From contig NZ_AP027130.1 in NCBI RefSeq assembly GCF_027925145.1, positions 1,364,001 to 1,428,000 of the forward strand: a stretch of 64,000 nt of DNA, written 5' to 3'. Positions 54,651 to 55,212 of this stretch are shown here, piece by piece. The DNA is from Thermodesulfomicrobium sp. WS. GTDB taxonomy: Bacteria > Desulfobacterota > Desulfovibrionia > Desulfovibrionales > Desulfomicrobiaceae. Below the pieces are notes generated by a model. The model was not told the DNA's origin and made no database searches. It saw only the letters and a list, made by a program, of their open reading frames with translations. The number at the start of each line of letters is the position of its first letter. Position 1 is the first letter of the stretch. The position numbers were made by a program, and so were the translations under genes.

Positions 54651-54682
54651 CCTGGCCCCGCTTCGGCGGGGTCAGGGCGTTT
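54651..54682 (+). terminator. Terminator of fadL with UUCG loop
   Basis: CCTGGCCCCGC (54651-54661) pairs over 11 bases with GCGGGGTCAGG (54666-54676) around TTCG, then GCGTTTCT. The convergent selenoprotein gene ends inside this hairpin. Confidence 0.75.
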
Positions 54683-54926
54683 CTATGGCGGCCATGCGAG
54701 CGAGGATGGCCTGAGCGCTGGGGAAACGCCGCTCGGAGCGCAGGCGCCACACGCACTGCCCGCGGAACCAGACTTCCATATCTCCGCGCAGTTGCGGTGC
54801 AGGCACCAGCGTTACCGCTTGCGGACCAAGGATGGCGCCGATCTCGGAGGCGAGCTTCCCGGCCCGCTCCAAAAGGCCGCGTCAGAGGCTGCAGACGCGG
54901 ATGAGGAGCGTCTCACTGGGGCACAT
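54672..54926 (-). CDS. SelW/Rdx-like selenoprotein with in-frame UGA (CxxU)
   Basis: An 84-residue protein if TGA at 54884-54882 is read as selenocysteine. The reading begins at ATG 54926, and the Rdx redox motif C-S-L-U lies at residues 12-15 (LIRVCSLUR). Downstream residues (GAILGPQAVTLVPAP, then DMEVWFRGQCVWRLR, then FPSAQAIL) match the SelW/Rdx thioredoxin-like fold, which normally has CxxC or CxxU there. A bSECIS-like hairpin follows the UGA. Without decoding, only a 66-residue piece without the motif would be made, from a TTG. Its ATG overlaps the upstream DUF2845-type gene by 14 bases; the ribosome site is weak. Confidence 0.7.
54846..54870 (-). promoter_or_regulatory. Candidate bacterial SECIS element
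   Basis: On the minus strand, 11 bases after the UGA, GGAGCGGGC pairs with GCTCGCCTCC (one bulged base) around the loop CGGGAA. The loop has G at its second position and lies 20 bases from the UGA, within the published bSECIS limits for these two features. Confidence 0.5.
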
Positions 54927-55212
54927 ATTCGCTTTTTTTGAGGATCCCGCCTTCGAAGGTCAGGACGTAAAACCCGCCGGGCACGGCATAGGTGAGTTCG
55001 GTTACGGTAAATTTGCGCAGTTCGCGGCGGCGTTCATTGAGGTAGGAGACCTCCCCCACGTCGCGTTCGGTCAGGGGCGGGCCGCATTTGGCCACCACCT
55101 TGGCCATGATGGTGCCTGGGGTCATGAGATCCCCTTGGCAGCGCAAATCAATGGCTCCCAGCAGGGAAGGGAAAAGTCCGGTGATGGCCAGGGCAAAAAG
55201 GAGAGCACGCAT
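54913..55212 (-). CDS. DUF2845-like exported protein
   Basis: A 99-residue exported protein with a signal peptide (LLFALAITGLFPSLLGA). It has Cys residues in LRCQGDLM and VVAKCGPP and the tail GGILKKSEYVPQ, typical of small DUF2845 proteins of unknown function. The ATG at 55212 gives the signal peptide; the frame upstream is unrelated. It precedes and overlaps the selenoprotein gene. Confidence 0.65.
   Translation of the reverse strand: MRALLFALAITGLFPSLLGAIDLRCQGDLMTPGTIMAKVVAKCGPPLTERDVGEVSYLNERRRELRKFTVTELTYAVPGGFYVLTFEGGILKKSEYVPQ

Follow-up and report, generated by a model that had tools for sequence, protein, structure and literature searches.

In bacterial selenoproteins, decoding of an in-frame UGA by SelB and Sec-tRNA(Sec) is guided by a hairpin downstream of the codon; mammalian Selenoprotein W carries a CxxU motif, as does the protein described here. 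SelW-like selenoproteins of bacteria were listed in 2006 for Desulfotalea psychrophila and Geobacter sulfurreducens (PMC1794560), ranked in 2008 among the most widespread selenoproteins of marine samples (427 examples; PMC2398784) and were found in 2015 to include genes missed by annotation in Epsilonproteobacteria (PMC4607533). The gene we describe is a divergent new member of this long-known family, which is not itself new; a literature search for SelW-like proteins together with Desulfomicrobium found nothing. Like other bacterial SelW-like selenoproteins, it combines the CxxU motif and UGA codon of the family with a Deltaproteobacteria-type host that possesses SelABCD, but it reads C-S-L-U in place of the usual Y-C-x-x-U, has one extra residue after U and has a longer loop near residue 35; identity to Desulfomicrobiaceae relatives outside its own genus is 22-34%. 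Cysteine-containing Rdx proteins (2fa8 Atu0228, 2p0g, 2ojl, 2obk, 2oka and 3dex) share the thioredoxin-like fold and the place of the redox pair, differing in the use of CxxC instead of CxxU and in chains about 20 residues longer.

The window, by which we mean the whole 64,000-nucleotide stretch of the Thermodesulfomicrobium sp. WS contig that was analysed, contains the following features at this locus:

54913..55212, minus strand: DUF2845 gene (PF11006), directly upstream, overlapping the start of the selenoprotein gene by 14 nt
54672..54926, minus strand: SelW-like (Rdx family) predicted selenoprotein gene, 84 amino acids, Sec at residue 15, stop TGA 54674-54672
54882..54884, minus strand: UGA in frame, the putative Sec codon of the C-S-L-U motif; TGA at the same position in relatives
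54846..54870, minus strand: bSECIS-like hairpin with a 9-nt 5' arm, a 6-nt loop CGGGAA and a 3' arm with one bulge
54656..54671, minus strand: inverted repeat CCCCGCCGAAGCGGGG, just past the stop, between convergent genes

The minus-strand frame from ATG 54926 reads MCPSETLLIRVCSLURGLLERAGKLASEIGAILGPQAVTLVPAPQLRGDMEVWFRGQCVWRLRSERRFPSAQAILARMAAIETP, with C at residue 12 and the in-frame TGA (54884-54882) as residue 15. No other ATG, GTG or TTG occurs from the previous stop of this frame up to the UGA. The frame, the position of the TGA, C-S-L-U at residues 12-15 and the length of 84 residues thus all agree with a preliminary description of the locus, to the coordinate. Searching the 84-residue protein against profile collections places it in the family which that description had named: Pfam Rdx (PF10262) spans the UGA, matching residues 8-78 at 7.9e-8 (32.8 bits against a curated cut-off of 22.6), and its score falls when the part before the UGA is removed, leaving 3.3e-6 for the remainder alone. 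Two NCBI SelW models match nearly the full protein below their cut-offs (NF041051 SelTWH_Campy, 23.2 bits against 88; TIGR02174 CXXU_selWTH, 19.2 bits against 34.2), which would explain a missed annotation, and the gene has probably been left out. Gene finders tend to miss a SelW-like gene with an internal UGA, and a plain ORF caller returns here only a 66-residue ORF from TTG 54872; the gene was thus fairly called hidden as far as gene callers are concerned, the family being well known.

An AlphaFold model built from 18 sequences yields a confident SelW-like fold (pLDDT 90.9), in agreement with the earlier proposal that the sequence after the UGA adopts it. Strand 7-11 is followed by helix 16-33, with C12 and U15 between this first strand and first helix. 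The model has both membership features of Rdx/SelW proteins, a redox pair (CxxC or CxxU, here CxxU) that follows the first strand and a SelW-type thioredoxin-like fold. The best PDB matches are the SelW-related proteins 2ojl, 2fa8 and 2p0g (TM 0.74-0.78), in which a cysteine aligns with the UGA; mouse SelW (2npb) has a related fold at TM 0.6.

Homologues agree closely on the codon. Rdx matches occur in 19 of 348 genomes of the order, nearly all Desulfomicrobiaceae, and TGA occupies the fourth position of C-x-x-U in all 18 aligned Desulfomicrobiaceae sequences, the window's included. A search of genome contigs with the single protein matched only a sister metagenome-assembled genome (MAG) of the Desulfomicrobiaceae, the nearest named relative, and we therefore surveyed the phylum with the family alignment. 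This matched 56 of 395 genomes in a spread sample, with TGA inside the match in 52; among 29 phylum loci that we read, 28 have TGA at the Sec position and one has TGT (Cys), which is the cysteine-or-Sec occupancy that the preliminary description had looked to homologues for. Since TGC or TGT becomes TGA by one base change, one might suspect a cysteine codon altered by sequencing error, or a pseudogene undergoing decay, but the frame is otherwise intact with a confident predicted fold, and the same TGA in the sister species and in relatives across the phylum in effect refutes this through independent genomes; we regard it as extremely unlikely.

Comparison with the sister genome (L024) bears on where the product begins. 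Residues 1-14 differ at 5 of 42 nucleotides, with three amino-acid changes, whereas after the UGA (window 54672-54884) only 1 of 213 nucleotides differs; the adjoining DUF2845 gene differs by about 9%. With a single change after the UGA, dN/dS between the two is uninformative there. Behind the near-identity there could be gene conversion, an unusual degree of constraint or a chimeric end of the contig, and the N-terminal part could differ more because it is less constrained; the sister contig, which stops close by, is itself possibly a chimera. A region nearly identical in two species behind a variable N-terminal part, together with the existence of the 66-residue ORF from TTG 54872 and its match to Rdx by itself, speaks for a UGA that simply terminates translation and a gene whose true product is a truncated Rdx-like protein starting at that TTG. 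Such a product would nevertheless lack the first strand and the entire CxxC/U active site, in relatives the YCxxU leading up to and including the UGA is kept by selection at the protein level, and the position is TGA, once Cys, in the homologues read. Nor do the homologues start only after the UGA, as the preliminary description had allowed that they might: their starts precede it, and the codons before it are under protein-level selection. We consider a truncated product very improbable.

Selection was measured in 12 Desulfomicrobium-type genes, one set of genomes from the sister genus of the window's. There pN/pS is 0.26 before the UGA and 0.52 after it, against 1.01 in a control stretch that precedes the start, indicating that both sides are translated in one frame. 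Counting from the UGA, these genes have zero synonymous change in codons 7-12, and no other stretch of the gene varies as little as codons 6-12: same-residue codon pairs differ synonymously in 2.6% of cases there, against 47% in codons 13-61 after the UGA. The conserved stretch contains CCGCAAGTCTTGCGG, a predicted hairpin with its loop about 25 nt from the UGA. Judged from these alignments, the deficit of synonymous change is the signature expected of a SECIS element and the best such evidence in the family. At this place the window gene has GCC GGG AAG CTC GCC, a different sequence, and its own hairpin.

That hairpin begins 11 nt after the UGA with GGAGCGGGC (54870-54862), followed by the loop CGGGAA (54861-54856) and GCTCGCCTCC (54855-54846, one bulged C). 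Bacterial SECIS elements are described as having a loop of 3-9 nt located 16-37 nt from the UGA, an upper stem of 4-16 bp and G among the first two loop nucleotides (PMC13188914); the window hairpin conforms, with G at position 2 of a loop that begins 20 nt after the UGA and an upper stem that has 9 pairs and a single bulge. Its place is within the coding sequence, immediately past the UGA, whereas the eukaryotic SECIS is in the 3' UTR. In the sister species, the single difference after the UGA converts a G-U pair of the hairpin to A-U. The stem, loop and spacing of the preliminary description therefore stand, but too much weight had been placed on them: the folding energy is ordinary for GC-rich sequence (z = -0.16 against shuffled sequence), and a similar bSECIS-like minimum-free-energy (MFE) test is passed by 558 (38%) of the window's 1450 TGAs. 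We accordingly rejected the hairpin as independent proof. The Rdx protein match exceeds chance; the hairpin alone does not.

The host genome, one contig of 2,357,780 bases (2.36 Mb), holds the Sec genes that the preliminary description had proposed to look for, each over its curated cut-off: selA (5e-186), selB (4e-112), selD (4e-105) and tRNA-Sec (79 bits). The selD gene (G000:C1:151464-152387, L011) has its own in-frame TGA and is probably itself a selenoprotein gene, and of two adjoining formate dehydrogenase alpha genes (G000:C1:927665-935003; L044 and L045) one has an in-frame TGA and the other none. In the minimum-free-energy hairpins that follow the UGAs of selD and FdhA, the loops start with GG and lie 20 and 23 nt from the codon, a layout comparable to that of the SelW-like gene, which has CGGGAA at 20 nt. 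This complete machinery also bears on whether the UGA might be decoded by general suppression, as Trp or through a frameshift, routes for which we found nothing in favour; window genes end normally with UGA (DUF2845 and the SelW-like gene itself), and Trp would break a redox pair in which Cys or Sec is conserved. The chance of such a non-Sec route is minimal.

Drawing on the sequence comparisons, we conclude that this is almost certainly a bacterial SelW-like selenoprotein gene with its UGA read as selenocysteine. Translation would start at ATG 54926, probably in coupling with that of the DUF2845 gene upstream, and SelB:Sec-tRNA(Sec), presumably recruited by the hairpin at 54870-54846, would insert selenocysteine at UGA 54884-54882. 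The predicted product, 84 residues long and thioredoxin-like, carries its C-x-x-U redox pair behind the first beta strand and would most likely serve as a small thiol/selenol oxidoreductase.

The genus has a third genome, G021 (85% complete; L053, contig 21), which has the DUF2845 gene with no SelW gene after it, an ATPase-like reading frame beginning in its place, and a search of this 85% complete genome for SelB at 1e-80 gave no match; the joint lack of SelW and a SelB match in an incomplete genome fits dependence on Sec decoding. In three further genomes (G005, G015 and G019) SelB is present but Rdx finds no match, so that members able to decode Sec can do without SelW.

DUF2845 is the upstream neighbour of the SelW gene in 13 of 17 relatives, and the N terminus of its product is hydrophobic and signal-peptide-like. 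Translational coupling of the two overlapping genes is probable; a joint function is speculation. A DUF2845 profile search of the 29 phylum loci outside the family did not find it, and the link may therefore be simple synteny. Downstream, the CCCCGCCGAAGCGGGG repeat may possibly act as a bidirectional terminator, although it has no T run. One could combine these observations into a small, conserved Desulfomicrobiaceae gene pair whose members partly overlap, in which SelW and the DUF2845 protein, probably exported, would share a redox role, the SECIS hairpin of the window's genus having been replaced by one of another sequence without loss of the gene or its UGA; as a whole, we think this combination unlikely.

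The locus adds a divergent, probably unannotated selenoprotein to the Desulfomicrobiaceae, a branch that curated NCBI models miss. For a comparative view of bacterial SECIS elements, the family offers a natural variant set for probing how SelB reads the hairpin. If the SECIS replacement is true, SelB recognition would have either tolerated or tracked the change of hairpin.
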